DNA of 64,000 bases. Source: a virus. Both the position numbers and the translations under genes were made by a program. The DNA lies in the IMG/VR virus record IMGVR_UViG_3300015264_000002, positions 1 through 64,000 of that record; one strand, given 5' to 3'. Of this stretch, positions 5,504-60,445 are shown in pieces. Each line of letters begins with the position of its first letter. Positions within the stretch are counted from its first letter, which is position 1. Under the pieces are notes generated by a model. It saw nothing but the letters and a program-made list of their open reading frames with translations. It made no database searches and was not told where the DNA came from.

Positions 5504-7717
5504 GTGCGTCGTCCGTGCCGGTTTGCGGCACTGCCACGCATCACAGCAAGGCACGTGGCCAGAGTGTCCACCGCTGTCAGCGCCGATACCGTCCTGGCTG
5601 ACGCCGCGGCGGCCGCACGCGCGGCCCTGGCCGCCGCGGCACCGCCCCTGCGCCTCTTCATCCCGCTCACCAAGGTCGACCTGGTCAAGCGGGAGGTGTG
5701 GGGGATCGCGGCCGAGGAGCGGACGGACAAGTCGAAGCGCGAGAAGATGGACTATGCGTCGAGCAAGCCCTTCTTCCAGGCGTGGTCGGACGGTCTCGCC
5801 GCCGTCACGGGCGGCATGTCGCTCGGCAACGTGCGGGCCATGCACCAGCCGATCGCCGCCGGCCGCCTGATCAGCCTGCTCTTCGACGACGCCAACAAGC
5901 AGGTCCACGTCGGGGCGCATATCGTCGACGACGCCGAGTGGAACAAGTGCGCGCAGTGGGTCTACACCGGCTTTTCCGTCGGCGGCTCGTACGCCGCGCG
6001 CTGGGCCGACCCCGACGAGCTCGGGGTGGTCTGCTACACCGCCAACCCCTGCGAAATCTCGCTCGTCGACAACCCACAGATGTGGGGCGCCAACTTCACC
6101 GTGGTCAAAGCGGACGGTGCCACCGAGCTGCGCAAGTTTGCGAGCGCGCCGGCCGAGCGGCTGGCCGAGCTGATCAAGGGGTACGCCGACGGCATCCCCA
6201 CCAGCCAGCTGGCACAGTCGATCGCGCACCATATCGACACGGCCAAGTACAACGCGACGCACGCGGCGTCGCATGCCGAGGCGGCGGTCACGACCGTGAC
6301 GGAGCTCGAGGACCTGGCGCGCGCCGCGATCCCCGCGGTCAGCGCGCACCTGGCGGCGCTCGACGCCGCCCGCACGGCCGGGGCAACCGCCGTGGGGAAG
6401 GGGGCGGGCAGCATGCGCACCGCAGCGACCGCGACCGACCTGTACAAGGGCGGCGACGGCAGCGGCGACTACGGCACGGCCGACGAGGCGGGCTATGCCG
6501 ACCCGGGGTACCAGGACGACAAAAAGCCGCGGTACCCGCTGAAGGAGGGGGGTAAGCTCTCCCCGAAGCGGATCCGGGCGGCGTTCAGCTACATCAACAA
6601 GCCGACCAACGCCGCCAAGTACTCGACCAAGCAGGCGGCCGCGATCAAGGGCAAGATCGTGCGGGCCTGGAAGGCCGCGATCGACGCGGACGGGCCGCCG
6701 AGCGCGCAGAAGCTGGCGGCGGTGTACCCGCACAACGCCGCGGTACTCGCCAAGGTCGCGCACACGGGCGGCCTGATCAAGACCCTGTGGGACGTCGGCC
6801 GGCTGGCCGAGATCCTGCAATCGCTCGACTGGATGTGCGAGTCCCTGGAGGCCGAGGCGGACAGGGAGAAGGACGACAGCCCCGTGCCCGGCGCGCTCGC
6901 CGCGATCATCCAGGCCCTCGGCAACGTGCTGGTGGTGATGACGGCCGAGGAGGTGAGCGAGCTCGACGCCTTCGACGACGACGAGGTGGCCGAGGGTGTC
7001 GCCACGGCCGCCGGGCTGTTCGGCACGCTGCGCAAGGTCGACGCGTACAAGGGCATGCGGAAGCGCGTGCAGAAGGTCCACGACATGAGCATCGAGATGG
7101 GCGCGGCGTGCGCGTCCATGGACAAGGTCGCAACTGCCGCGGCGGGTGCCGCCGCGCCTACACGGTTGGAGGTGGAGGACATGGACGAGGCGGGCCTGGC
7201 GAAGGCAATGGGCGCGCTGCTGGGTGGCCCCGACGGGCTGCTGACCAAGGCCGTCAATGACGGTCTGACGGCAGTGGTCAAGCCGCAGCTGGATGCGCTG
7301 ACCAAGGCGCAGACGGATCAGGCGGCGGTCGTGACGGCGCTGGCAGCGACGGTGACGGCGCAGGGGACGCTGCTCGAGAAGGTCGCGGGCAGGCCGGCCG
7401 ATCCGGGCGCGGCACCGCACACCGGCGCGGCGCCGGTGGTCACGGTCGACAAGCCGGCCGAGGTGGCGGCCAATGCGGGCGCCGCGGCGGCGGCCGCGCT
7501 GACGGTGGTACCGACGCGCAAGTCGGCGCGCGAGCTGGCCAAGATGAGCGCGCAGGAGCGCGACGACTACGGCATGGACCTGCTCAAGGGCAAGTTCACC
7601 GGCTGCGACGGGCCCGGCATGCCCGGCCGCGGCGCGATGAAGCACGAGGGGCCGCTACCGCTGATGGGCCGCCAGGGCCCGGGCGGGATCGCCACCCCGG
7701 GCGTGGGGGCCATCTAG
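5504..7717 (+). CDS. prohead protease (XkdF-like) with DUF6582-like and scaffold-like regions
   Basis: 737 residues if GTG 5504 is used; GTG 5564 is an alternative start. Residues ~45-200 match the XkdF-type caudoviral protease layout: IPLTKVDLVKREVWGIA, then GNVRAMHQPIAAGRL, WVYTGFSVGG and EISLVDNP, where the His and Ser are the likely catalytic residues. Residues ~325-400 (YADPGYQ, KKPRYPLKE, AFSYINKP, AAAIKGKIVRAWKAA) resemble the DUF6582 domain. The remaining C-terminal ~300 residues are helical, Ala-rich and charged, as expected of an internal scaffold. Protease-scaffold fusions directly upstream of the capsid gene are common in siphoviruses. Confidence 0.8.
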   Translation: MRRPCRFAALPRITARHVARVSTAVSADTVLADAAAAARAALAAAAPPLRLFIPLTKVDLVKREVWGIAAEERTDKSKREKMDYASSKPFFQAWSDGLAAVTGGMSLGNVRAMHQPIAAGRLISLLFDDANKQVHVGAHIVDDAEWNKCAQWVYTGFSVGGSYAARWADPDELGVVCYTANPCEISLVDNPQMWGANFTVVKADGATELRKFASAPAERLAELIKGYADGIPTSQLAQSIAHHIDTAKYNATHAASHAEAAVTTVTELEDLARAAIPAVSAHLAALDAARTAGATAVGKGAGSMRTAATATDLYKGGDGSGDYGTADEAGYADPGYQDDKKPRYPLKEGGKLSPKRIRAAFSYINKPTNAAKYSTKQAAAIKGKIVRAWKAAIDADGPPSAQKLAAVYPHNAAVLAKVAHTGGLIKTLWDVGRLAEILQSLDWMCESLEAEADREKDDSPVPGALAAIIQALGNVLVVMTAEEVSELDAFDDDEVAEGVATAAGLFGTLRKVDAYKGMRKRVQKVHDMSIEMGAACASMDKVATAAAGAAAPTRLEVEDMDEAGLAKAMGALLGGPDGLLTKAVNDGLTAVVKPQLDALTKAQTDQAAVVTALAATVTAQGTLLEKVAGRPADPGAAPHTGAAPVVTVDKPAEVAANAGAAAAAALTVVPTRKSARELAKMSAQERDDYGMDLLKGKFTGCDGPGMPGRGAMKHEGPLPLMGRQGPGGIATPGVGAI

Positions 7718-22997: not shown

Positions 22998-25238
22998 GTG
23001 GGCATGAAGGGCGGGAAGCCGCCGTCGGCGGCGCAGCCCCAGGCGATCAAGTCGCTGCGCCTGCAGTCGTCCAGCTGGGGGCAGGCGATCCCGCTGGCGT
23101 ACGGCGAGAACCGCCTGGCCGGCAACATCATCTTTACCGGCTACTTCCTGGCGATCGCGCAGCCGTCGGGGTTGCCGTCGGGTGGCAAGATCGGTGGCCG
23201 CCAGGCGTTCGTCACCTACGTGTACACGGTCAGCTGGATCATGGTGCTGAGCGAGGGGCCGCTGGACGCCGGGACGTTCCCCGCCGACATTGGTGGCCCG
23301 CTGGTCCCGGCGTCGGGGGTCGAGCGGTTCAACATCGGGCTTGCCCGTCCCGGGAACCAGGTGATCTCCGTTGACGGCAGCGGGGCGCAGCACAAGCAGC
23401 CCGTCGCGGGCGTCGACCCGGGGGCGTGGAAGGCCAAGCGGGTGCGGCCGGTCGGCAAGGCCGTCCACGGCTTCGCCAACCCCGTGAAGCTCCACGACTG
23501 GACCGGCACGCGCGTCTATATCCGCCCCGCGGGAACGGCCGTCACGCCGTACGCCATGGCCGACGCCTTCAAAAACCACGTCAACCACGGCGTCCCGCAG
23601 CCGCAGCACACCACGTACGTGTCCGACCACGGGGAGAATTACGAAGGGTACGCCACGATCACGGAGCAGAACGAGGACCTGGGCAGCAACGCGTCGATCC
23701 CCAACTGGAACTGGCCCGAGCGGTCGCTGTGCCAGTACCGCGACGTGTACGGGGCCGCGGCCGACGGGATCGGCAGCGACGGCGCGGGCAACATTTACGA
23801 TGCCGACCCGGCGTGTATCAGCCGCGACCTGCACGCCAACTTGAAACACGGCGGCGGCTGGGAGCGGCCGCAGCTGCGCGCGTACCTGCCGGGCTGGCCC
23901 TATACGTGGGGGGCGGGCCTGGCGGCCGACGTGGTGCCGCCCGAGTCATGGTCGGCCTGGTGCCGTGCCGCCGACATTCTGATCAGCCCCATTTACGACG
24001 CCCAGCGCAAGCACGCGGACATCCTGACCGACCTGTGCGCGATCACCACCTGCGCGCCGGTGTGGACGCCCACCGGCTTGAAGGTGATCCCATACGCGCA
24101 GGACGCGATCACGTCGACGCGGACGGGCGTGACCTACACGCCCAGCACCGACCGCCTGTACACCGGCCCCGGGGCATGCGTCGCCGTCCGGTACCACTTG
24201 AAGCCCGGCGACTTCCTGCCCGGCAAGGACCGCGACCCGGTGCAGGTCGAGCGGAAATCGGCGGTGCCCGATCACGGCACGGTCGGCCGCTACAACGACC
24301 TGCGGATCGAGTACGTGGACCGCCTCAACGCCTACGCGACGACCATCGCGCAGGTCAAGGACGAGGCGAGCATCGGCCAGGTCGGGCTGCTCAGCAAGGA
24401 CCCCGACACGTACCACGAGATTTGCGACGGCGCGCTGGCGACCGGCGTGGCGACACGCAACCTGGCGCGCCTGGTCACCGACCGCAACGTCTACCACTTC
24501 AGCCTGGGCTGGCGCTTCCACATGGCCGAGTGCATGGACGTGCTCGGGATCCCCGGCAGCGTGCTCGGCCTGGCCATCGACGAAATCCTGGTGCGCGTCA
24601 CCAACATTGCCGAGGACAAGTCGGGCAAACTCGACTTCGACGCCGAGGAGTATGCGGTGATCGGGGCGGGGCCGCCGCCGACCGTGGTACCGCCGGCGGT
24701 CACGGCGGTGGGCGACGAGGGGCCGCACGTGATCTGTGGGGCGACGTCGCCCGGGACCATCCAGGACCCCGACAGCATCAACAATACGACGAAGAACTAC
24801 GACCTGCACGGGCTCAACACGGATGACGACCTGTCAGCGGGCGGCATCGCTATTAACGCATTCAGTCCCGGCGTGCCGGGCGCCGTCCCGCTAGTCGCCC
24901 CCACGGGGGTGCTGATCACCCGCTGGCGTATCCGTTTCATGGTGTCCGAGTTCGTGGCCGCTGGCTACATCCCCGGTGAGAACGCCCAATACAGTCTCCA
25001 CCGCTTCCGCTTCACGGTGAACGGCGAATCGCGGCCAGAGTTTGAGGTGTTTTTCAACGACCGGCTGGGCGGTGCGATCAAGACTGTGGACGCGATCCTC
25101 TTCGTGCCGGCAGGTGCGCGCGTGGGGATTGAGGTCCGGTATTTTTACGAGAACGGCACCGCGATCCCGGATTTTACGGAGAATGCAAACATGATGGGGA
25201 CCATCGCCACATGGCAGATCGTCTGTGAGGCGGCCTAA
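22998..25238 (+). CDS. tail tip / host specificity protein (gpJ-like)
   Basis: 746 residues from GTG 22998. The start (SSSWGQAIPLAYGENRLAGN) is typical of gpJ/GTA megatron-type tail-tip proteins. A central region (LTDLCAITTCAPVWTPTGLKVIPY, EICDGALATGVATRNLA, WRFHMAECMDVLGIPG) belongs to the putative phage tail protein domain. The C-terminal ~170 residues are less GC-rich and beta-sandwich-like, probably the adsorption domain. Confidence 0.8.
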   Translation: MGMKGGKPPSAAQPQAIKSLRLQSSSWGQAIPLAYGENRLAGNIIFTGYFLAIAQPSGLPSGGKIGGRQAFVTYVYTVSWIMVLSEGPLDAGTFPADIGGPLVPASGVERFNIGLARPGNQVISVDGSGAQHKQPVAGVDPGAWKAKRVRPVGKAVHGFANPVKLHDWTGTRVYIRPAGTAVTPYAMADAFKNHVNHGVPQPQHTTYVSDHGENYEGYATITEQNEDLGSNASIPNWNWPERSLCQYRDVYGAAADGIGSDGAGNIYDADPACISRDLHANLKHGGGWERPQLRAYLPGWPYTWGAGLAADVVPPESWSAWCRAADILISPIYDAQRKHADILTDLCAITTCAPVWTPTGLKVIPYAQDAITSTRTGVTYTPSTDRLYTGPGACVAVRYHLKPGDFLPGKDRDPVQVERKSAVPDHGTVGRYNDLRIEYVDRLNAYATTIAQVKDEASIGQVGLLSKDPDTYHEICDGALATGVATRNLARLVTDRNVYHFSLGWRFHMAECMDVLGIPGSVLGLAIDEILVRVTNIAEDKSGKLDFDAEEYAVIGAGPPPTVVPPAVTAVGDEGPHVICGATSPGTIQDPDSINNTTKNYDLHGLNTDDDLSAGGIAINAFSPGVPGAVPLVAPTGVLITRWRIRFMVSEFVAAGYIPGENAQYSLHRFRFTVNGESRPEFEVFFNDRLGGAIKTVDAILFVPAGARVGIEVRYFYENGTAIPDFTENANMMGTIATWQIVCEAA

Positions 25239-25241
25239 CGG

Positions 25242-26207
25242 GTGCTGCTCTTCCGCCCAGGCTTCGACCGTGTCGCCCCGCCCGGATACTATGGCGGCGC
25301 CGGCTTTGCGGACGACTTCGCTGCCATGATCGCAGGGGTGTACGCGGGCCATTTCCCCTTCGACGTCCTGATCAACGGGTACAGCGGGTATTACTATCCG
25401 CAGTTCGGCTCAGCGTCCACGTTCAACCTCCGGGTGGGTGGGATCGACGTGCCCGACTCTAGCCTGATCCTTGGGACGTCTGCGGGTAGTGGCGGCCTGG
25501 TCAGGCTCGCCAATCCCGCCCCGCTCCCTGGCGTCACGCCGGCGAACGTTGACGGCGCCTCGCTTATTGCCATCGTCACAACGGACCCCGGCAGCGGCAT
25601 TTGCAACGCCGTCCTGGATTACACGGCCGCCAGTGCGGCGGACCTGGGTAAACAGGTCATGGGCATCGGACACAAGATCCTCGCTGACACCGGCAGCGTT
25701 GGGGCCTTCTCGGGCTTCTTCAGCGCCATCAGCAACTCGCAGCTGGTGTCGTCGATCGTGCAGGGCACTACCGGGAGCCCTATCAACACCCGGTCCATCT
25801 ACTTCGGGCTCTCCTACGAGGACGTGTTTGGCGACCGCTCCCCGGGGACGCTTGAGGACGTGCGCGTGCTGGCAGCACAGTATTGGCCCCTCGCCGGCAC
25901 CTTCTCCGACTTCCTGCTCGTGATCCATAGCGTGGGGGGGGCTGACGGGCATTACCGCTTCGGGTTCCGGAAAAACGGCGTGACCGTGCTCACGCTCGAG
26001 TGCACTGCGAACGGGGATCGCGTTATCAGCCCCGTCGGCGCGACCACCGTGGACGTCAACGAGGGCGACCGCGTGTGCTGGCTGTGCGAGGCCGTCGACG
26101 GCGGCGCCGTCCAGCTAGATGCCGAACTCATCTGGGCGTTCCGGGCAGGCGAACAGTCGGTCGGGCCGGCCTTTGGTGATGCCGGCGTAGGGGGAGGGGG
26201 ACTATGA
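25242..26207 (+). CDS. putative tail fibre / receptor-binding protein
   Basis: 321 residues from GTG 25242. Rich in Gly, Ser, aromatic residues and short beta segments. The C-terminal ~90 residues (YRFGFRKNGVTVLTLEC, VDVNEGDRVCWLCEA, ELIWAF) resemble in layout the C-terminus of the preceding tail-tip protein, suggesting a shared beta-sandwich module. It is AT-richer than neighbours. Function inferred from position. Confidence 0.65.
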   Translation: MLLFRPGFDRVAPPGYYGGAGFADDFAAMIAGVYAGHFPFDVLINGYSGYYYPQFGSASTFNLRVGGIDVPDSSLILGTSAGSGGLVRLANPAPLPGVTPANVDGASLIAIVTTDPGSGICNAVLDYTAASAADLGKQVMGIGHKILADTGSVGAFSGFFSAISNSQLVSSIVQGTTGSPINTRSIYFGLSYEDVFGDRSPGTLEDVRVLAAQYWPLAGTFSDFLLVIHSVGGADGHYRFGFRKNGVTVLTLECTANGDRVISPVGATTVDVNEGDRVCWLCEAVDGGAVQLDAELIWAFRAGEQSVGPAFGDAGVGGGGL

Positions 26208-26767: not shown

Positions 26768-26771
26768 CCGC

Positions 26772-27047
26772 ATGCCACGCCCCGCGCCGTACGGCCCGCC
26801 CCTCGTCTATCCCCTGGCCCAGGCCGTGGCCGACGGTCATGCGCAGCCGTTCCCTACCTGGCAGGCCGCCCACCAGGGCCCGGGCCACGCGATCACCGCG
26901 ACGGCCATGGACGTGACACCGGCGGTGTACCGTGGCGCTATGCTGCACGACTGTACCTGTGGCGCCCGCTATGCCGTGCTGGGGCCGCTGGTGGGGCTGC
27001 TGCGGGAGCGTCGGGCGGCGGCTCCGGGGCGTCGGGGCCCGTCGTGA
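26772..27047 (+). CDS. small hypothetical tail-region protein
   Basis: 91 residues from ATG 26772; the stop overlaps the next GTG start. It contains HDCTCGARYAVLG near the C-terminus, a possible single metal-binding pair. Family unknown. Confidence 0.5.
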   Translation: MPRPAPYGPPLVYPLAQAVADGHAQPFPTWQAAHQGPGHAITATAMDVTPAVYRGAMLHDCTCGARYAVLGPLVGLLRERRAAAPGRRGPS

Positions 27048-27775
27048 TCGTCGGCGGCGGCTGCCAGGTCACCGACACGCCCGCGGGCGCGTGCCGGCCC
27101 CCGGTGATCTTCGAGCCGGCCGCGGGCCTGGCGGACGCGCCCGAGCTGTGGGTGGCGACGTCGGGGCCGCCCCACAGCTGGGGCGGCGTCCACGTGTTCT
27201 TCGGCCGCACCGACGAGGACGACTACCAGCACGTGGGCACGATCGCGCGCGGGATCGTGCACGGCGTGCTGCTAGACCCGCTGCCGGGTCTCCGGGCCAG
27301 TGCCCGGCGCGAGCACGTGGGGATCACCGTGCAGGTCGCCGTGCACGACCGCGGGCAGCTGCTGTCGTGCACGCCGGCGCAGGCCCGCGGCGGCCGGTAC
27401 CTGCTCTACGTCGGCCGCGGGAACCAGTACGAGGTGCTGGCGTACACCGGCGCCGAGCTCGTCGATCTGAGCGGTGACGCGCACGTCTATGCCCTCAACG
27501 GGTACCTCTGGCGCGACGTGTACGGCACCTGGACGACGCCGGCCGGTGCCGTCCGGCCGCATGCCGCCGGCGCCGACGTCGTGCTGCTCGGCCCCCGCGT
27601 GCTGCACCTCGAGTACCCCCGGTGGCTGGTCGACCGGGTCGGCTATTTCAAGTTCGCCAACTTGAACCCGTTTGCCGAGGGCATGGCACCGCTGGCCGAC
27701 GTGCCCGCGATCCCCGTGCGGATCACGGGCCGGTACCTGCGCGACCGGCGCAGGTTTACGGGGCAAGTGGATTAG
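27044..27775 (+). CDS. minor tail protein (phage tail / megatron beta domain)
   Basis: 243 residues from GTG 27044 (coupled). The pattern ELWVATSGPPHSWGGVHVFF, DDYQHVGTIARGIVHGVLLDPL and EVLAYTGAELVDLSG corresponds to the beta-rich domain that in many GTA-like tail-tip proteins is part of the same polypeptide. Here it is a separate gene two genes downstream of the fibre candidate. Confidence 0.7.
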   Translation: MIVGGGCQVTDTPAGACRPPVIFEPAAGLADAPELWVATSGPPHSWGGVHVFFGRTDEDDYQHVGTIARGIVHGVLLDPLPGLRASARREHVGITVQVAVHDRGQLLSCTPAQARGGRYLLYVGRGNQYEVLAYTGAELVDLSGDAHVYALNGYLWRDVYGTWTTPAGAVRPHAAGADVVLLGPRVLHLEYPRWLVDRVGYFKFANLNPFAEGMAPLADVPAIPVRITGRYLRDRRRFTGQVD

Positions 27776-37016: not shown

Positions 37017-37213
37017 CGGTGGCACTCGCGCGGATCGTGCCAGGTCGCCGGTGCTGCCCCGCACCGTACGCCGTGCACGAGCGCCGTCCCGTTGCCGAGG
37101 AACACCTGTAGATCCGCCGCGCCCGTCGTGTCCTCGCCCGCGACGCAGATGGCGGCAAAGCAGGCGCCGCTCGCATCGGCGTAGTGCACGATCCGACCGA
37201 CGGTGAGCTTCAT
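37013..37213 (-). CDS. small conserved phage protein (VGRIVHY family)
   Basis: 66 residues from ATG 37213 (ATGA with sbcD). The layout VGRIVHYADASGACFAAICV ... LQVFLGNGTALVHGV ... TWHDPREC resembles a widespread short phage protein with a conserved His-Tyr start and a TWH.P end. Its function is unknown. Confidence 0.65.
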   Translation of the reverse strand: MKLTVGRIVHYADASGACFAAICVAGEDTTGAADLQVFLGNGTALVHGVRCGAAPATWHDPRECHR

Positions 37214-38493
37214 GATCCCCCCGCCTGGAGCGTCTCGAGCTTCCGCAGGCACCGCGCCTGTTGCCCGGCGTCGGGCGCGCGCGCACCTAGCAGCTGCCAA
37301 AACAGCCGCAGCTTCTCCGCCGGGTCGCCGGCCGTCGACCAGGCCACGCTGGCGTCGACCGTCGCCGGCGGCGGGGTGCGCAAGGTGTCGTCACCCGCGC
37401 CCATCGCGGGTGGGGTATCCCCGTCGCCGGCGACGGCAACCTGCACGCCGGTCAGCCGGCTGCGCGTGCGCGGGATCGGCGTGCGCTCGACCACCACGGC
37501 GGCCGCGCCACAGCTGTCGATCGCCCAGCTTGTCAGCAGCGCCGTCGACGGCACACTGTCCGCCTCCTCCTCATGGTAGCGCGCGCGCACCCGCACCTCC
37601 GCCCCGGCGATCCCCTGCCAGCGATCGCCGCCGGCGTCCAGCTGCTCGATCAACGACGGCCCCGGGTGCAGGTCGACGTCGACGGTCAGCAGCCGCCGCG
37701 CCGGCGTCGGGCGAAAGGTCACGACGGGCGGCTGTCCGGCGACGACGTCGGCCAGCAGGTAGCCCTTGACGTCGGGCTCGCCGTGATTCTGCGCTGTCGG
37801 GCTGCCAGCAAACCAGCCGCGGACGCCGACCTGCTGGAACTTGTGGATGTGCGAGCAGAGCGCGACGTCAACGCCGAGCTCGTCCAGGTCGTGCGGCGCT
37901 AGTTCGATCTCCCGCCCCAGCATGACCTCCCCGCCGCCCGTCACGCTGCCGCCGACGTTGCCATGGAACAGCAGGACCGTGGGCACGCCGCGCGCGCGCC
38001 AGTCCGCGGCGTCCAGCCGCCACGCCGTCAGCAGCGTGCGCAGGTGCGTCTCCATCTCGACCTTTTGGTCGGCCACCGCGCCGCCACTGCCCGCCCCGAC
38101 CAACCACCGCTTGCTCGGATACGGCAGGCAGTAGACGCGCACGGGCCCGGCGGCCGTGTCGAGCTCGAGCACGTCGGGCTGGGTCACGGCGTGGATCGGA
38201 TAGCGGCCCGCCAGCCGCCCGTATATCTCCAGGTCGCCCGGGTACTCGTGGTTGCCCTCGATCACGACCACGGGCGCGTGGGCGGCCATCATCTGCAGCG
38301 TGCGCGCGTTCGCGTTCCGCTCGGCCGGCTCCGCCTTGTGCGGCACCGTCGTGCCCGCCAGGTCGCCCCCGACTGTCCACAGGTGCACGCCCTGGCGCAT
38401 GCCGTCGTCGGCAACGTAGCCAAGCACCAACAGCTGCGTCTCCCAGCGGGGGCCGACCGTCGTGTGCCAGTCGCCCGAGTGTCCAATCCTCAT
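37210..38493 (-). CDS. sbcD: SbcD/Mre11-like metallophosphoesterase
   Basis: 427 residues from ATG 38493. All calcineurin-like motifs are visible: GDWH (residues 7-10), GGD (42-44), GNHE (80-83), LLFHGNVGG and CSHIHKF. These bind two Mn ions in the nuclease site. The C-terminal part probably contacts the SbcC arms. sbcD and sbcC are separated by three small genes. ATGA overlaps on both sides. Confidence 0.9.
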   Translation of the reverse strand: MRIGHSGDWHTTVGPRWETQLLVLGYVADDGMRQGVHLWTVGGDLAGTTVPHKAEPAERNANARTLQMMAAHAPVVVIEGNHEYPGDLEIYGRLAGRYPIHAVTQPDVLELDTAAGPVRVYCLPYPSKRWLVGAGSGGAVADQKVEMETHLRTLLTAWRLDAADWRARGVPTVLLFHGNVGGSVTGGGEVMLGREIELAPHDLDELGVDVALCSHIHKFQQVGVRGWFAGSPTAQNHGEPDVKGYLLADVVAGQPPVVTFRPTPARRLLTVDVDLHPGPSLIEQLDAGGDRWQGIAGAEVRVRARYHEEEADSVPSTALLTSWAIDSCGAAAVVVERTPIPRTRSRLTGVQVAVAGDGDTPPAMGAGDDTLRTPPPATVDASVAWSTAGDPAEKLRLFWQLLGARAPDAGQQARCLRKLETLQAGGS

Positions 38494-38708
38494 GCCGTCC
38501 CCCTGCGCCCGCGCCGCTGCTTGGCGATCGCGCGGGTGGCATACTCGTAGAATACCCGGAGGAAGGTGCCAGGCGGCTGGTCGCGGCCGCGTTCCATGGC
38601 CTGATAGACCACCCGGCGACTGACACTGCACCACCGCGCGGCCGCGCTGACGCTGACGCCAGCCTCCAACTGCTCCAACAAGAGCGCCACTGTCGTCTCC
38701 GTCAGCAC
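38490..38708 (-). CDS. miniature HTH protein (paralogue of 40115-40465)
   Basis: 72 residues from GTG 38708. The HTH core SVSAAARWCSVSRRVVYQAM is followed by ERGRDQPPGTFLRVFYEYA. The second copy in this operon shares AAAR..GVSR..LY.AM.RGR.QPPG..LRV. Probably a DNA-binding protein. Confidence 0.7.
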   Translation of the reverse strand: MLTETTVALLLEQLEAGVSVSAAARWCSVSRRVVYQAMERGRDQPPGTFLRVFYEYATRAIAKQRRGRRGTA

Positions 38709-38715
38709 AACGGCG

Positions 38716-49105: not shown

Positions 49106-49165
49106 GGCGCGCAGGGCCGTGTGGGGTGTATAGAACCGGAAGGGGAGGGAACGACGCGATGCTGA
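49073..49165 (+). pseudogene. truncated copy of the gene at 50463
   Basis: A 30-codon frame from ATG 49073 encodes M-T-S-TDRQRDALGAQ and then unrelated residues. The TDRQRDAL segment matches the start of the protein encoded at 50463 (M-I-L-TDRQRDALHRL). It looks like the 5' end of that gene left behind when the propeller cassette was inserted. Confidence 0.6.
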
Positions 49166-50466
49166 CGACACCAGTGCTGGGTCCGATCACAAGCCATGGG
49201 CGCCCGACGCTCTTGTGGTCCGCCGCCCCGGGGGCGGCCGGCTACCTGATCGAGCGCGCATACGGCTGGGGTCCGTTCAAGGCGATCGCCTACGTGGCGG
49301 CGCCGCTGACGTCCTACATCGACAACCAGCAGGACGGCAGCAACGGGTTCGTCCGCGTCGGCCACAATCGGTACCGCCTCCGCGCGGTAGCGGCCGACGG
49401 CCAGGGCAACTCGCCACCGTCAAGCTGGGTGGACGCGGCCTACGGGACGACGACGCCGCTAGCGGCGCGCCGGCTGCTGGCCGCCACCGCCAACCGGCTG
49501 GTGATCGTCGATCCGGAGGCGGGGACTATCCTGGGCGCGACGCCGCCCGATGCGGTGTTCGCGGGCGCGGCGGCGATCGTCGTGGTCGGCACGCGGGCGT
49601 ACGTGCGGGCTAACGGGCGCCTCCTGGTCGTCAACGTCACCAACCCGGCTGCACCGGTGCTCACCGCGGTCCTGGTCGATGCGCGCCTGGCCGAGGTGGG
49701 GGACGGCCCGGGCGAGCGCGACGGCGGCCAGTCGCTGCTGGCCTGGTCGCCGTCCCGCCTCCTCGTGTCCTGCTTCCTCGCGGGCACGCTCCTGTCTATC
49801 GACGTGAGCGATCCGACGCGGCCGCGCGTCGCCGGCGAGATCGCGCCCGGCGGCGTGGTCAACTTCGTCTCGGGCCAGCCGCTATGTCTGGCGCGCCTCG
49901 ATGCGACGCGCGTGCTGTGGCCGGGGAACGCCAATCCGCACGTACCCGTGGTGGACGTGACGGACCCCGACGCGCCCGCCCTGACGAACGCCTGGGGGTC
50001 GTGCGTCCTGCACATGGGCGAGGGCCCGTGCGCCCTCGTGGTCGACGGGCGACGCGCGATCGTCGCCGTCGACGTCGGCGGCCTCTGCCTCTTCGACCTT
50101 GCGGACCCCGCGCAGCCGGTGTGCGTGGGCGCGTTGCCCGTGCCGGCGATGACCATCACGCCGACGCTTGCGTATGACCCGAGCTACGGCCAGGTGGTGG
50201 CCGTCTGCCCGGGACCGGACGCCGGTGCGGCCGCGCCCGCGCAGCTCGTTCTCCTTGACGTGACGGTGTCGGCTAGCCCGCGGCTCGTCAGGACGGTGCC
50301 GCTGGTTGCGCGCGCCGCCGCGGTCGTCCTCCTCGACCGGCGGGCGGTCGTCCTCGAGGAGGGCGCCGTGGTTGCGTTCGACCTCGACCAGCCCGACCAG
50401 CCACCGCGCACCGTGGCGGACGCACAGCTGGTCGGCGCCGGCGCGCTGGCCGTGGCGTCGCCGTGA
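49159..50466 (+). CDS. LVIVD-repeat beta-propeller protein with Fn3-like N-terminus
   Basis: 435 residues from ATG 49159 with a GGAAGGGGAGGG ribosome site. Residues ~10-95 resemble a fibronectin-III domain (PTLLWSAAPGAAGYLIERA, NRYRLRAVAADGQGN). Six or so repeats follow: LLVVNVTNPAAPVLT, LLSIDVSDPTRPRVA, VPVVDVTDPDAPALT, LCLFDLADPAQPVCV, LVLLDVTVSASPRLV and VVAFDLDQPDQPP. These are LVIVD-type propeller blades. No signal peptide is evident. A virion adhesin is possible, but it lies far from the tail genes. Confidence 0.8.
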   Translation: MLTTPVLGPITSHGRPTLLWSAAPGAAGYLIERAYGWGPFKAIAYVAAPLTSYIDNQQDGSNGFVRVGHNRYRLRAVAADGQGNSPPSSWVDAAYGTTTPLAARRLLAATANRLVIVDPEAGTILGATPPDAVFAGAAAIVVVGTRAYVRANGRLLVVNVTNPAAPVLTAVLVDARLAEVGDGPGERDGGQSLLAWSPSRLLVSCFLAGTLLSIDVSDPTRPRVAGEIAPGGVVNFVSGQPLCLARLDATRVLWPGNANPHVPVVDVTDPDAPALTNAWGSCVLHMGEGPCALVVDGRRAIVAVDVGGLCLFDLADPAQPVCVGALPVPAMTITPTLAYDPSYGQVVAVCPGPDAGAAAPAQLVLLDVTVSASPRLVRTVPLVARAAAVVLLDRRAVVLEEGAVVAFDLDQPDQPPRTVADAQLVGAGALAVASP

Positions 50467-51258: not shown

Positions 51259-52302
51259 ATGGACGGGGTGGTGGTGGCTGGGATGGAGACGCTGTTTCGA
51301 CGCCCCGACCGGATCGACGCCAAGCTGAACGTCTGCACGGTCCTGTTTAACAGCGTGCGGTACCGGGCGCGGTGGAAGCTGACCGAGGACTTCATCCGGC
51401 AGGTCGAGCGCCACCACAACGCGCGCGTGTGTGTGGCCGAGGTCGCCTTCGGGGAACGGGAGTTCGTGATCGCCAGCGCCACCGACCCGTACCACCTGCG
51501 CCTGCGCACCTGTCACGAGCTGTTTTTCAAAGAGAACGCCCTCAACCTGCTGTTTGCCCGGGTCATGGCGGCGGACCCCGAGGCGGAGTACTTCGCCTGG
51601 GTCGACGCCGACACGCATCTTGCGCGCTACGATTGGGTGGACGAGGCAATCCACCAGCTGCAGCACCACCCGGTGGTGCAGCTGTGGTCGGAAATGCAGG
51701 ACCTGACGGACGAGCACGAGGTGCTGGCGACCGGACCGAGCTTCGTGCAGACCTGGCAGGAGGGTCGCAAGGGCGAGCCCGGGTGTCACGGGGCGCCGGG
51801 CCGTCAACACCTGGGGCCGACCGGCCTCGGCTGGGCCGCGATCCGCGCGTGGATCGAGGGCGTTGGTGGCCTGCTCGACGTGTGCGTGGTCGGCTCGTGC
51901 GACTGGTGGATGGGCTACGCGCTGATCGGCCGGCTCGAGGCCGCGCTCGCCGCGACCGGGAACCACCCCGGGCGCAAGGGGCGCGGTACCTACCACCCGG
52001 ACTATGTCAAGGCGATCTGCGAGTGGGAGCGCCGGACGCGGTTGACGCAGTGGAAGGAGCGGCCGCTACAAGGCAACATCGGCCTGGTCAAGGGCCTGGC
52101 GCTCCACTACTTCCACGGGCCCAAGGCCGACCGGCGCTACCAGGACCGCGAGCAAATTTTCATCCGCCACCAGTTCAACCCGCTGACCGACCTCAAGCGT
52201 GACGTCCAGGGGCTGTGGCAGCTGACGGCCGACAAACCGGAGATGCGCCGCGACCTGCAGCGGTACTATCGGGGACGCAACGAGGACGCGCCGACGCGCT
52301 GA
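51259..52302 (+). CDS. phage glycosyltransferase (GT-A type)
   Basis: 347 residues from ATG 51259; ATG 51283 is an alternative and neither has a strong ribosome site. LNVCTVLFNSVRYRARWKLT, FFKENALNLLFARV and YFAWVDADTHL contain the sugar-nucleotide/metal DxD-type motif (DAD). The C-terminus (LHYFHGPKADRRYQDREQIF, NPLTDLKRDVQGLWQL, RGRNEDA) is characteristic of a phage family often encoded beside terminase genes. The substrate could be modified DNA or a surface glycan; unknown. Confidence 0.75.
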   Translation: MDGVVVAGMETLFRRPDRIDAKLNVCTVLFNSVRYRARWKLTEDFIRQVERHHNARVCVAEVAFGEREFVIASATDPYHLRLRTCHELFFKENALNLLFARVMAADPEAEYFAWVDADTHLARYDWVDEAIHQLQHHPVVQLWSEMQDLTDEHEVLATGPSFVQTWQEGRKGEPGCHGAPGRQHLGPTGLGWAAIRAWIEGVGGLLDVCVVGSCDWWMGYALIGRLEAALAATGNHPGRKGRGTYHPDYVKAICEWERRTRLTQWKERPLQGNIGLVKGLALHYFHGPKADRRYQDREQIFIRHQFNPLTDLKRDVQGLWQLTADKPEMRRDLQRYYRGRNEDAPTR

Positions 52303-52955
52303 TGGCGGGCGCACCACGTAGCAGTGCACCACCGCGACGGCGCCGGCGACGTCGTCGGCCGCCACGACAGGCGGCGCCGGCGCAGCGCAATCGGCCCGTG
52401 GGCGAGCACGCGCGCAAGCTGCAACGCCGCGTGCAGGCGCTCGACCTGTACCTGCACGGCCTGTCGTTCACCGGCGTGCACGACGCCCTGGCGTTGCAGG
52501 GCGTGCGCGTCGATCGCTCGACCGTCGTCCGCGACATTACCGATGCCCTGGGCGAGCTGGCGGAGCTCGACGTGCGCTACCGTGAGCAGGTGCGACAGGA
52601 GCTGGTGGAGAAGGCGCGCCTGCTGTGGAAATGGCTCGAGCCGCGCGCGTCGGTGGGCGATCCGCGGGCGATCCTGGCGGGCGAGCGCGTGCTGGGGCGG
52701 CTGCAGAAGCTGACGGGGGCGTACCCGCCGGGCCTGCCCGACGTGCCGGGGCTCGCGGACGTGGCCGGCCCGGCGCGCGTGGTGTCGGGCGACGTCCTGG
52801 TGTACTTCGAGGCGGACCTGTCGCACTGGCCGACGGCGGCCGCGCAGCAGGTGATCGAGACGACGGCGGTGCCGGCGGCCCCGCGGCCGGCGGCGGGGGG
52901 AGGGGGCTATGCGGAAGCGGGATCAGGTGCGGCGGGCGCGGCGCAGTCGGCGTAG
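52302..52955 (+). CDS. terS: terminase small subunit
   Basis: 217 residues from ATG 52302 (TGATG). A very basic start (RRRRRRRRPPRQ) precedes an HTH region (LDLYLHGLSFTGVHDALALQ, VDRSTVVRDITDALGELAEL) and a helical oligomerisation part (VRQELVEKARLLWKWLEP, VLGRLQKLTGAYPP). It would recognise the packaging site and regulate the large subunit encoded next. Confidence 0.75.
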   Translation: MAGAPRSSAPPRRRRRRRRPPRQAAPAQRNRPVGEHARKLQRRVQALDLYLHGLSFTGVHDALALQGVRVDRSTVVRDITDALGELAELDVRYREQVRQELVEKARLLWKWLEPRASVGDPRAILAGERVLGRLQKLTGAYPPGLPDVPGLADVAGPARVVSGDVLVYFEADLSHWPTAAAQQVIETTAVPAAPRPAAGGGGYAEAGSGAAGAAQSA

Positions 52956-53124
52956 GCGGTCACCGGGCCCCTGGGGCGGCGTGCGGCTGGTGCTGCCCCG
53001 TACCCAGGACGCCGACGGCCGGGAGCTGGGGCCGGTGATCGTGGGCGACGGCGCCTGCGTCTACCTGCGCCAGGTGGTGGGGGAGGAGCTGGCCGCGCTG
53101 CTGGACGGGCTGGCCACCGGGTAG
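52909..53124 (+). CDS. 71-residue basic protein ending in an amber stop in frame with terL
   Basis: From ATG 52909 with GGGGGAGGGGG in front, overlapping terS by 47 bases. Very basic N-terminus (RKRDQVRRARRSRRRR), then VRLVLPRTQDADGRELGPV and a helical end (VVGEELAALLDGLATG). TAG at 53122-53124 is followed in the same frame by the terminase sequence. It may be a separate small protein or the N-terminal extension of a readthrough product. Confidence 0.6.
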   Translation: MRKRDQVRRARRSRRRRSPGPWGGVRLVLPRTQDADGRELGPVIVGDGACVYLRQVVGEELAALLDGLATG

Positions 53125-53127
53125 CAG

Positions 53128-54621
53128 CTGGCCACCGCCCCGGTCGACGCCGGCGCCGGGCAGCGCGTCGTCCGCTTCCGCTTCCTGCCCAAGCAACGCG
53201 AGTTCATTGAGGACGCGCACGCCGAGCTGCTGTACAGCGGGGCGTTCGGCGCCGGCAAGTCGTACAGCATCTGCGCCAAGGCGATCGCGCTCGCCACCGT
53301 CTACCCCGGCACCACGATTGGCCTGTGCCGCAAGCGCCTGACCCAGCTGCGCAGCACGACCATGCGCACGTTTTTCGAGGAGGTGTGTCAGCCCGAGCTG
53401 ATCCGGTGGTACCGCAAGAGCGAGCGCGTCGTCGCCCTCAAGTCCGGCCCGGCGCTGCGCCCCGGCGGCTGCGCGTGCCAGTCGCGGCTCGGCTGTCGCG
53501 CCTGCACGGCCTACGTGTTCTTTTTCGGCCTGACCAACGACCGCGGCCACTCGTTCAATATCCGCAGCCTCAACCTGGGCGCGTGCGGCGTGGACGAGGC
53601 AATCGAGCTGACGGAGAACGAGTGGCTGGAGATCCAGGGGCGGCTGCGGGAGCGGCACTGCGCGCTGCACCAGGTGTTTGGCGCGACCAACCCGGGCAGC
53701 CGCGGGCACTGGCTGTACCAGCGCATGTGGATCAACGCCGACCCGCAGGTGCAGCATGTCGTGCAGACCTCCACGCTCGACAATCCGCACCTGCCGCCCA
53801 GCTACGTCGCGCTGATCAGCCGGTACAAGGGCCGGTATTACGAGCGGTACGTGCAGGGCAAGTGGGTCGGCTTCGACGGCCTCGTGTACGACGTGTACGA
53901 CCCGCTGGTGCACGAGCTCACGTGGGAGCAGTTCGCAGCCCGCAAGGGCTGGGGCAACGGCTACCAGACGACCCCGGGCGTCTATGCGATCCCGCCCAAG
54001 TGGACGCGCCTCGGCGGCTGCGACTTCGGCTTTACCAACCCCTTCGTGTTCCAGTGGTGGGCCGAGTCGCCCGACGCGGAGTACTTCATGTACCGCGAGA
54101 TTTACCACACGCGGCGGCTGGTCGAAGATCACGCGCGCGACATTGTCCGGCTGTCGCGGGGCGAGCCGGCGCGGCTGAACAGCTGGGCGGATCACGATGC
54201 CGAGGACGCCGCGACGTTGCGCCGCTACGGCGTCAACACCATGCCCGCCAACAAGGACGTGGCCAACGGGATACAGACGGTCTACAACCTGCTGCGGCCC
54301 GACGACGCGACCGGCCGCCCGCGCGCGTACTTCCTGCGCGACGCCCTGGTGGAGGAGGACCCGGCGCTGGCGGGCGACCAGGAGCGCCGGCACCCGGTAC
54401 GCACCACGGAGGAGTACCAGGTGTACAAGTACCTGCCGGGGACGGAGACGCGCAGCGCGAAGGAGGAGCCGGCCAAGGTCGACGACCACGGCTGCGACAC
54501 CACCCGGTACGTGCTACACAGCCACCTGGTCGGCGGCGCTAACGCGGGGCTGCTGCGGTACATGGAGGCGGAGGCCAAGAAGCGGCTGGCCGAGCGCGCG
54601 CGGGCGCAGCGTGGCTACTGA
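53128..54621 (+). CDS. terL: terminase large subunit, non-standard start
   Basis: About 498 residues from CTG 53128. No ATG, GTG or TTG exists in frame between the amber stop at 53122 and ATG 53362, yet conserved sequence begins before that ATG. Walker A SGAFGAGKS is at about residues 37-45. Walker B-like LNLGACGVDEA and coupling GATNPGS follow. The nuclease acids sit in GGCDFGFTNPF, ADHDAED and DDHGCDTTRY. An inserted Cys cluster (CACQSRLGCRAC) lies between Walker A and B. Start by CTG or by readthrough of the preceding TAG. Confidence 0.85.
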   Translation: MATAPVDAGAGQRVVRFRFLPKQREFIEDAHAELLYSGAFGAGKSYSICAKAIALATVYPGTTIGLCRKRLTQLRSTTMRTFFEEVCQPELIRWYRKSERVVALKSGPALRPGGCACQSRLGCRACTAYVFFFGLTNDRGHSFNIRSLNLGACGVDEAIELTENEWLEIQGRLRERHCALHQVFGATNPGSRGHWLYQRMWINADPQVQHVVQTSTLDNPHLPPSYVALISRYKGRYYERYVQGKWVGFDGLVYDVYDPLVHELTWEQFAARKGWGNGYQTTPGVYAIPPKWTRLGGCDFGFTNPFVFQWWAESPDAEYFMYREIYHTRRLVEDHARDIVRLSRGEPARLNSWADHDAEDAATLRRYGVNTMPANKDVANGIQTVYNLLRPDDATGRPRAYFLRDALVEEDPALAGDQERRHPVRTTEEYQVYKYLPGTETRSAKEEPAKVDDHGCDTTRYVLHSHLVGGANAGLLRYMEAEAKKRLAERARAQRGY

Positions 54622-54934
54622 GTTCACGTTCCAGTGCACGATCTGCGGCCACGTGTACACCGTGGTGGCCAGCCACCTCGCGGCCTGCCCGCGGTGTGAT
54701 CCCGGGCACCAGGGCCCCGCGCGGCTGGCGCCGTTTTGGGGCGAGCTGCAGGTGGGGCTGCTGCGGGCGCTGCTGCACCTGCACGTCCCGTGCACGTACG
54801 CCGGTGTCCGCGGATCACCGCCGGCGGTGCCGTTCTTTGCCTTCGGGCTGTGCACGCTGCCGCAGGACGCGTCGCTGTCCGGGGCCGTGTGGACCAACCA
54901 GCTGCTGTGGCGCGGCGCCTGGTGGGCCGGGTGA
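54611..54934 (+). CDS. zinc-finger hypothetical protein
   Basis: 107 residues from GTG 54611, overlapping the terL end by 11 bases. CTICGHVY and CPRC give a zinc ribbon; the C-terminal part is Trp/Leu-rich. Coupled to the next gene by GTGA. Function unknown. Confidence 0.6.
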   Translation: MATEFTFQCTICGHVYTVVASHLAACPRCDPGHQGPARLAPFWGELQVGLLRALLHLHVPCTYAGVRGSPPAVPFFAFGLCTLPQDASLSGAVWTNQLLWRGAWWAG

Positions 54935-58942: not shown

Positions 58943-59111
58943 GCCCGACGGCGATCGCGCGGCGGCCGACGACTACGGGCCGAGCCCCGTGGCCGCCGCG
59001 CTGGTGCTGCTGCGCGAGCACGACGCGCTCGATACCTGGGTCGATCAGTGGCGCGAGGCGCACCGGATTGGCTGGGCGCTCGGCCGCCGGCTAGGGCAAG
59101 GCCATGAGTAG
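58935..59111 (+). CDS. 58-residue hypothetical protein
   Basis: From GTG 58935, overlapping the preceding stop by 8 bases. Helical (ALVLLREHDALDTWVDQWRE). Its end overlaps ATG 59104. Family unknown. Confidence 0.5.
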   Translation: MPEPDGDRAAADDYGPSPVAAALVLLREHDALDTWVDQWREAHRIGWALGRRLGQGHE

Positions 59112-59170
59112 GGCGGAGATCAAGCTGGGCGGGCGGCCGGCTGCTGATCGACGGCGCCGAGGTCGGCCGC

Positions 59171-60445
59171 GTGCTCAGCGTCACCCTCGGGCACGACATG
59201 GCCGACGCCGTTGTCAAGTACAAGGCCCCCAGCGGTGCGGTGCACATCACCAGGTGCGCGGGGTTGCGGCCCCTCGACCTGGAAGCGGCGCAGTCGGACG
59301 GTATCCTGCCCCCGTGTGACCAGCCCGCGTGCAAGGGGCACGTGCGACATAGCGACGGCACGGTCAATCCGCTGTGCATCCACGATCCCGCGCGGCGGCG
59401 GTTCGACCCCGCGGAGCTCGCCGCTGACGTCGGCCGCGTGCTCTCCCAGGTCGTACCCCGTCCGTTCCTGGTGCCCACGCGTCGTGACCCCGTTGCGCGC
59501 GCCGCAGTCGACGGCATGCTCGGCGCCGGCGTAGCTCAGGCGGTAGAGCGCGTCACTCGTAATGACGAGGCCGCCGGTTCGAGTCCGGCCGCCGGCTCGC
59601 CGGTCGGGGAGGCGCTGCAGCTGCCGCGGCCGTTCCTGCCCAAGCTGCGACCCTGGGGCGGCCCGCGTCCTATTGGCCTCGACCCATGGCGAGCGGCCTC
59701 GTCCACCCCCTGGTACGTCATGGGCACCGGAGCGACGACGCACGCGGCGTGGGAGGACTCGTGGGAGGACTACTGCCGCAGGGCCCGCGGCTTCGTGCTC
59801 GAGCAGCTGGTCCAGTTCGTCAGCTGGGCGGGCCTGCCGGAGGTGTCCCCCCACACGCACCTCGTAATCACCCTGCGTCGTGGCGAGTGGACCCACGGGG
59901 TACAGCCGCACAGCTACCTCGCGCAGTACGACGTCGACGTGTGCACCGGATCGCGGCCCGACGGCCCCGACCGCGAGGTCTACAGCTACGGCGAAGCGGT
60001 CACCGCGTTGCACGGGGCGGCCTGGCAGGCCGTCGCCGCGGCAATCGACCGCGCGGGCCGGTCCATTGGGCCGGCCGTCGCCGTATGGTCCGAGCACCCC
60101 ATCGCGTTTGCTGACGAGGTGTGCAGCGAGCAGGGAATCACCTGGTCGCCTCCGTACGGTCGCTTCCGCTGCGTCACGTGCGACCACCTGCTGGACGAGC
60201 TCGAGCTGGCGTGCCACCCGCAGGGTAAGCCGCCGGCGCTGGACGGGACGCCGGCAGCGGCGGTCTCTGCGGCGGTCGACGTCAAGCTGACGATGGAGCA
60301 GCGGACGCGCGCCGAGGACGACGTCGCCACCGTGCTGCGCTGGCGCGACGAGCACCTGGCGCTGCTGTACCAGGCCCTGCGTCGGGGCAGCTGGACGGAC
60401 GACCACGCGCGCCTGGTGCTCAAAAAGGTGGGCTGGTTGCTGTGA
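59171..60445 (+). CDS. long hypothetical frame spanning a tRNA gene; 5' end probably frameshifted
   Basis: Open from 59108, first usable start GTG 59171. A coupled ATG at 59104 begins M-S-R-A-E-I-K-L-G-G-R in another frame; one base less near 59127-59140 would join it to LLIDGAEVGRVLSVTLGHDM in this frame. The N-terminal part has Cys/His groups (PPCDQPACKGHV, LCIHDP). The tRNA at 59525-59597 lies inside the frame, so translation may really end there and resume at ATG 59720. The 3' part (WEDSWEDYCRRARGFVLEQL, CVTCDHLLDELELACHP) looks like genuine protein. Family unknown. Confidence 0.5.
   Translation: MLSVTLGHDMADAVVKYKAPSGAVHITRCAGLRPLDLEAAQSDGILPPCDQPACKGHVRHSDGTVNPLCIHDPARRRFDPAELAADVGRVLSQVVPRPFLVPTRRDPVARAAVDGMLGAGVAQAVERVTRNDEAAGSSPAAGSPVGEALQLPRPFLPKLRPWGGPRPIGLDPWRAASSTPWYVMGTGATTHAAWEDSWEDYCRRARGFVLEQLVQFVSWAGLPEVSPHTHLVITLRRGEWTHGVQPHSYLAQYDVDVCTGSRPDGPDREVYSYGEAVTALHGAAWQAVAAAIDRAGRSIGPAVAVWSEHPIAFADEVCSEQGITWSPPYGRFRCVTCDHLLDELELACHPQGKPPALDGTPAAAVSAAVDVKLTMEQRTRAEDDVATVLRWRDEHLALLYQALRRGSWTDDHARLVLKKVGWLL
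59525..59597 (+). tRNA. tRNA-Thr (anticodon CGT)
   Basis: 73 bases fold as a full cloverleaf: acceptor GCCGGCG/CGCCGGC, D arm GCTC/GAGC, anticodon stem CGTCA/TGACG with loop CTCGTAA, 5-base variable region, T arm GCCGG-TTCGAGT-CCGGC, discriminator T. No CCA is encoded. The CGT anticodon reads ACG, a preferred Thr codon in GC-rich genes. Confidence 0.95.

Follow-up and report, generated by a model that had tools for sequence, protein, structure and literature searches.

A phage terminase gene that lacks a standard start codon and may begin at CUG just behind an amber stop

We analyzed a window of 64,000 nucleotides, part of a 65.6-kb virus record (IMG/VR IMGVR_UViG_3300015264_000002) with a G+C content of about 72%, and found that its gene for the terminase large subunit (terL) opens directly behind the in-frame amber stop of a 71-residue reading frame, ORF71, and contains no ATG, GTG or TTG codon ahead of its Walker A motif. 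The reading that we favor, with a probability of about one half, is that terL starts at CTG 53128 by termination-reinitiation. The features of this region, with positions counted from the first letter of the window, are as follows.

52215-52955, plus strand: probable terminase small subunit gene (coding call; weak PHROG_645 match, E 5e-5)
52909-53124, plus strand: ORF71, 71 aa, from ATG 52909 to TAG 53122-53124, in the frame of terL
53090-53134, plus strand: predicted RNA hairpin, -28.4 kcal/mol, with TAG and CTG both in its 3' arm
53122-53124, plus strand: amber stop of ORF71, read from the sequence
53125-54621, plus strand: terL open frame, 498 codons, ending with TGA 54619-54621
53128-53130, plus strand: CTG, proposed terL start codon, 37 residues before Walker A and 3 nt after the ORF71 stop
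53128-54621, plus strand: terminase large subunit as read from CTG, 497 residues (PHROG_2, PF04466, PF03237)
53239-53262, plus strand: Walker A motif GAFGAGKS, in which G39, G42 and K45 are invariant in the alignment
54611-54934, plus strand: next gene, GTG start (picked by eye), overlapping the terL stop by 11 nt

The terminase gene and its missing start codon

According to the sequence and the ORF lists, the terL frame begins immediately 3' of TAG 53122-53124 with CAG 53125, followed by CTG 53128, and its earliest in-frame ATG, GTG or TTG is ATG 53362, downstream of the Walker A codons. The initial annotation had reported this start-free interval between TAG 53122 and ATG 53362, with Walker A inside it, and had labeled the gene a large terminase; the sequence confirms the former, and the latter is borne out by profile matches to PHROG_2 (E 5e-35) and, above cut-off, to PF04466 and PF03237. 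In addition, the solved TerL structure 5oe8 is matched by the family profile, and the alignment contains both the Walker A motif GAFGAGKS and invariant aspartates in the C-terminal (nuclease) half, as expected of TerL. By these signatures, the terL product is a terminase large subunit. The ORF that begins at ATG 53362 is 419 aa long and excludes Walker A, and gene callers restricted to ATG, GTG and TTG would lose the motif here and report a truncated, 419-residue terminase.

In coding sequence of this phage, the chance that 79 successive codons lack ATG, GTG and TTG is about 1.2%, and for the 38 codons from the stop to Walker A it is about 12%. The start-free run itself is not very rare; the oddity is that a gene start has to fall within it. 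When inspected, two further genes that a crude caller had flagged as start-less (26768-27775 and 37210-38715) did not look comparable and seemed to reflect a confused frame or a close-by start in a different frame. Trained on the long ORFs of the window, a codon model assigned a coding posterior of about 1 to a single frame, running from about 52985 through the TAG into terL.

The genes around terL are tightly packed, and the 11-nt overlap of the next gene with the terL stop continues this order. Judging from its position, the gene at 52215-52955 probably encodes the terminase small subunit (TerS); a tblastn search with its product gave zero matches in phages. The start region of ORF71 overlaps the 3' end of this upstream gene, and its Shine-Dalgarno duplex, at -11.8 kcal/mol, is among the strongest in the window. 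No homologues of ORF71 were detected in phages, viral contigs, PHROGs, Pfam or the fetched loci.

Start positions in related terminases

The terL product matches 327 phage records with an identity of up to 36%, the best matches being haloarchaeal tailed viruses and Thermobifida phage P1312. Its identity is 40-47% to the terminase of a locus in a Chloroflexota MAG (L010) and at best about 46% to those of uncultivated viral contigs. Searches of the viral contigs by protein, by alignment and by DNA pattern gave no closer relatives of the window, and the 400 genomes sampled from the L010 phylum yielded more distant terminases only. The TerL proteins of the haloarchaeal Druskaviridae (HCTV-1, HVTV-1), HCTV-2, P1312 and L010 belong to the same family, with about 30-47% identity, and begin some 28-36 residues ahead of Walker A. 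Unlike the window, they have standard starts, annotated or read here (ATG; GTG in L010), and the GTG start of L010 overlaps the end of its upstream gene. A CxCx5CxxC-type cysteine cluster (window 53470-53505) is inserted in the ATPase domain of the window TerL; HCTV-2 TerL carries a CxxC...CxxC insertion at a similar place in the alignment, whereas L010 is devoid of any.

The comparison set comprised 86 loci with a located Walker A motif, including the window and some near-duplicates. Plausible starts of the relatives lie mostly 26-44 residues ahead of Walker A, and CTG 53128 lies 37 residues ahead of it. Moreover, CTG 53128 is aligned with the initiator methionine of HCTV-2 TerL (LATAPVDAG... 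versus MATSERDTG...). In an AlphaFold model of the frame read through the TAG, confident structure begins at about residue 89, that is, 15 residues past CTG. The starts of the relatives, their lack of an ORF71-like domain and this model all indicate that a terminase needs no ORF71 part to be complete if it begins at or near 53128. The initial annotation had offered two options, a start at CTG 53128 and a readthrough fusion, and the first is the better supported by its distance to Walker A, its alignment with the HCTV-2 methionine and its position 3 nt from the stop.

The same comparison bears on a sequence error or strain variant, in which the real start would be an ordinary one at or near 53128 with one base miscalled or mutated in the metagenomic record. 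Each of the 85 other loci has one or more standard starts ahead of Walker A and the window alone has none; a single substitution could hide such a codon, and the window is a single record whose near copy was not found. Against this stand the frame, which is otherwise intact and coding throughout, and two related lineages that seemingly lack a standard start here, one of them in five contigs. We regard an error or variant as less likely than a CUG start, but as its main rival. The initial annotation had also named the presence of an ordinary start here in relatives as evidence against an unusual one; most relatives do have such a start, whereas these two lineages seemingly do not.

Initiation further downstream, at CTG 53188 or ATT 53206, would also keep the frame, since both codons are in frame. 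CTG 53188 has no Shine-Dalgarno duplex, and either start would trim or delete the conserved PKQREF region ahead of Walker A. Grouped with these starts is ribosome bypassing over the TAG, which has been proposed for the terminase gene of Streptomyces phage Hau3 (PMC5009743). There is a GGG ahead of the TAG and a 9-nt direct repeat on either side of it (53110 and 53128), but bypassing is unneeded where the frame is identical on both sides of the stop. Equally close repeats start at 96 positions of this GC-rich window, and we rejected the repeat as a signal. Downstream starts and bypassing are together very improbable.

The amber stop and readthrough

Under amber readthrough, ribosomes that start at ATG 52909 would infrequently pass the TAG and produce a 570-residue fusion of ORF71 and the terminase. 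Such a fusion would accord with the shared frame and unbroken coding signal of ORF71 and terL, with the strong Shine-Dalgarno sequence of ORF71 and with the lack of a standard start of terL itself, and TerL is a protein required in few copies. However, an N-terminal extension like ORF71 occurs in none of the relatives found, the nearest of which share only about 46% identity. When the fusion was modelled, most of residues 1-88 (ORF71 and the linker) had a pLDDT below 50, which is weak evidence, as orphan sequences would score low anyway.

The sequence context of the stop does not favor readthrough either. The initial annotation had considered TAG-CAG-CTG to be close to the TAG-CAR-YYA readthrough signal, but CAG-CTG departs from CAR-YYA at its final base, with G in place of A as the sixth base, and thus is not a match. 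To our knowledge, this motif belongs to plant viruses rather than to bacterial systems. The predicted structure 3' of the TAG, tried as a possible readthrough signal, is weaker than the window average and was rejected. No suppressor tRNA was found within the 64-kb window, the only tRNA detected there being tRNA-Thr(CGT), which lies at 59525-59598 within a long open frame on the same strand (59108-60445).

TAG is an ordinary stop in this phage. By crude gene calling, 67 called genes end with 21 TAG, 41 TGA and 5 TAA codons, and no TAG was seen inside the confident genes that were checked. Reassignment of TAG to an amino acid was rejected, TAG being a common stop and a suppressor tRNA being absent from the window. 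With the extension missing from relatives, ORF71 an orphan, the motif imperfect, no suppressor tRNA and TAG an ordinary stop, the fusion suggested by the initial annotation is unsupported, and we consider readthrough improbable. A candidate for a similar in-frame junction, TAG 7715-7717, was also discarded: the open stretch behind it looks non-coding, and the gene that follows has a start of its own, ATG 7835, with a good Shine-Dalgarno sequence.

A possible termination-reinitiation mechanism

In the reading that we favor, ribosomes would load at the strong ORF71 site, and of those that terminate at TAG 53122 some would restart 3 nt downstream on the CUG, so that CTG 53128 would be decoded as fMet and serve as the non-standard start codon of terL. 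The Shine-Dalgarno duplex of CTG 53128 amounts to -3.9 kcal/mol, against -11.8 kcal/mol for ORF71. Free ribosomes would hardly initiate at a CUG held in the predicted hairpin (53090-53134), whereas ribosomes finishing ORF71 would open it. With almost no Shine-Dalgarno sequence of its own at the CUG and a predicted hairpin opened by ORF71 ribosomes, the output of TerL would be low and would follow translation of ORF71. From these features we infer that the CUG initiates, that it is coupled to ORF71 and that the hairpin plays a part.

Provided that CTG is the start, TAG 53122-53124 and CTG 53128 have the stop-start spacing of a coupled pair. Reinitiation across such short gaps is an established process: in E. 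coli, a stop-start distance of 2 nt costs 5-70% of it, and about 20-38 nt nearly abolishes it (PMC10666635). The hairpin, which was spotted after the fact, ranks within the top 2% of equally sized windows by stability, and its margin over shuffled sequences is marginal (z -1.78; 13 of 200 shuffles equally stable). A second gene pair in the window has a like same-frame junction of stop, one codon and start at 25236-25244 (TAA-CGG-GTG) and is likely translationally coupled.

CUG is a real yet very rare start codon and a poor initiator in E. coli. Among bacterial start codons it accounts for 0.024% (PMC11497404). This rarity counts against a CUG start, as do the absence of a strong Shine-Dalgarno sequence of its own and of a close relative that would show conservation of the junction.

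Related terminase genes with non-standard starts

Two related terL lineages seem, from their sequences, to use non-standard starts (ATC and ATA) at the junction. The first lineage (L032, L033, L035 and L037, with L100-L103; five contigs) has terL genes without a standard start before the Q motif, related to the terminases of haloarchaeal viruses. Here ATC lies 9 nt after GGAGG in GGAGGTGAT (L032:1998-2010). A small CxxC (zinc-ribbon-like) ORF upstream of terL is present in two alleles, between which the junction is unchanged. Frameshifting into terL was rejected for this lineage, as the candidate site differs between the two alleles and an ATC start is simpler. The second lineage is represented by a single contig, L042, in which a predicted ATA start overlaps the stop of the upstream gene, terS, by 4 nt (ATAG; L042:1927-1932), and the sole standard start ahead of Walker A is an ATG adjoining the motif.

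Although both starts are predictions, these lineages make an error at the window junction somewhat less likely, and they suggest that start codons at the terL junction are relaxed now and then. A broader scenario is that the junction in this family repeatedly loses its standard start (CUG, AUC, AUA) and that near-cognate initiation, coupled to the upstream gene, throttles the packaging motor, gated in the window by a hairpin that upstream ribosomes would have to open; we put this forward as speculative and doubtful.

Comparison with known systems

The proposed arrangement resembles coupling of the trpB-trpA type in that stop and start are a few nucleotides apart and the upstream gene carries a strong ribosome-binding site. 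It differs in that the start in the window would be CUG, not AUG, GUG or UUG, and would lie past the stop rather than in a -4/-1 overlap. CUG-initiated genes are known from bacteria and phages, one ORF of phage phiB124-14 being annotated with a CUG start (PMC3338817). The window terL is like them in having CTG at the start position and unlike them in being the gene of a conserved packaging motor, with a CUG assignment predicted from its position relative to the starts of relatives. Bypassing as proposed for Hau3 means that non-standard decoding for a terminase is not wholly unprecedented (PMC5009743): in both phages expression of the terminase seemingly requires it, although a UUA codon and bypassing figure in Hau3, whereas in the window the UAG is in frame and a near-cognate start is at hand.

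On present evidence, each component, coupling and a CUG start, is already known, and the junction is unusual in detail rather than a new mechanism. If the proposal is true, an essential phage gene would naturally start at CUG, and the junction would be a case in which translational coupling sets a low dose of the packaging motor. Upstream of the packaging genes, the window also encodes an LVIVD-repeat protein (49126-50466), whose gene adjoins that of a DNA methyltransferase.
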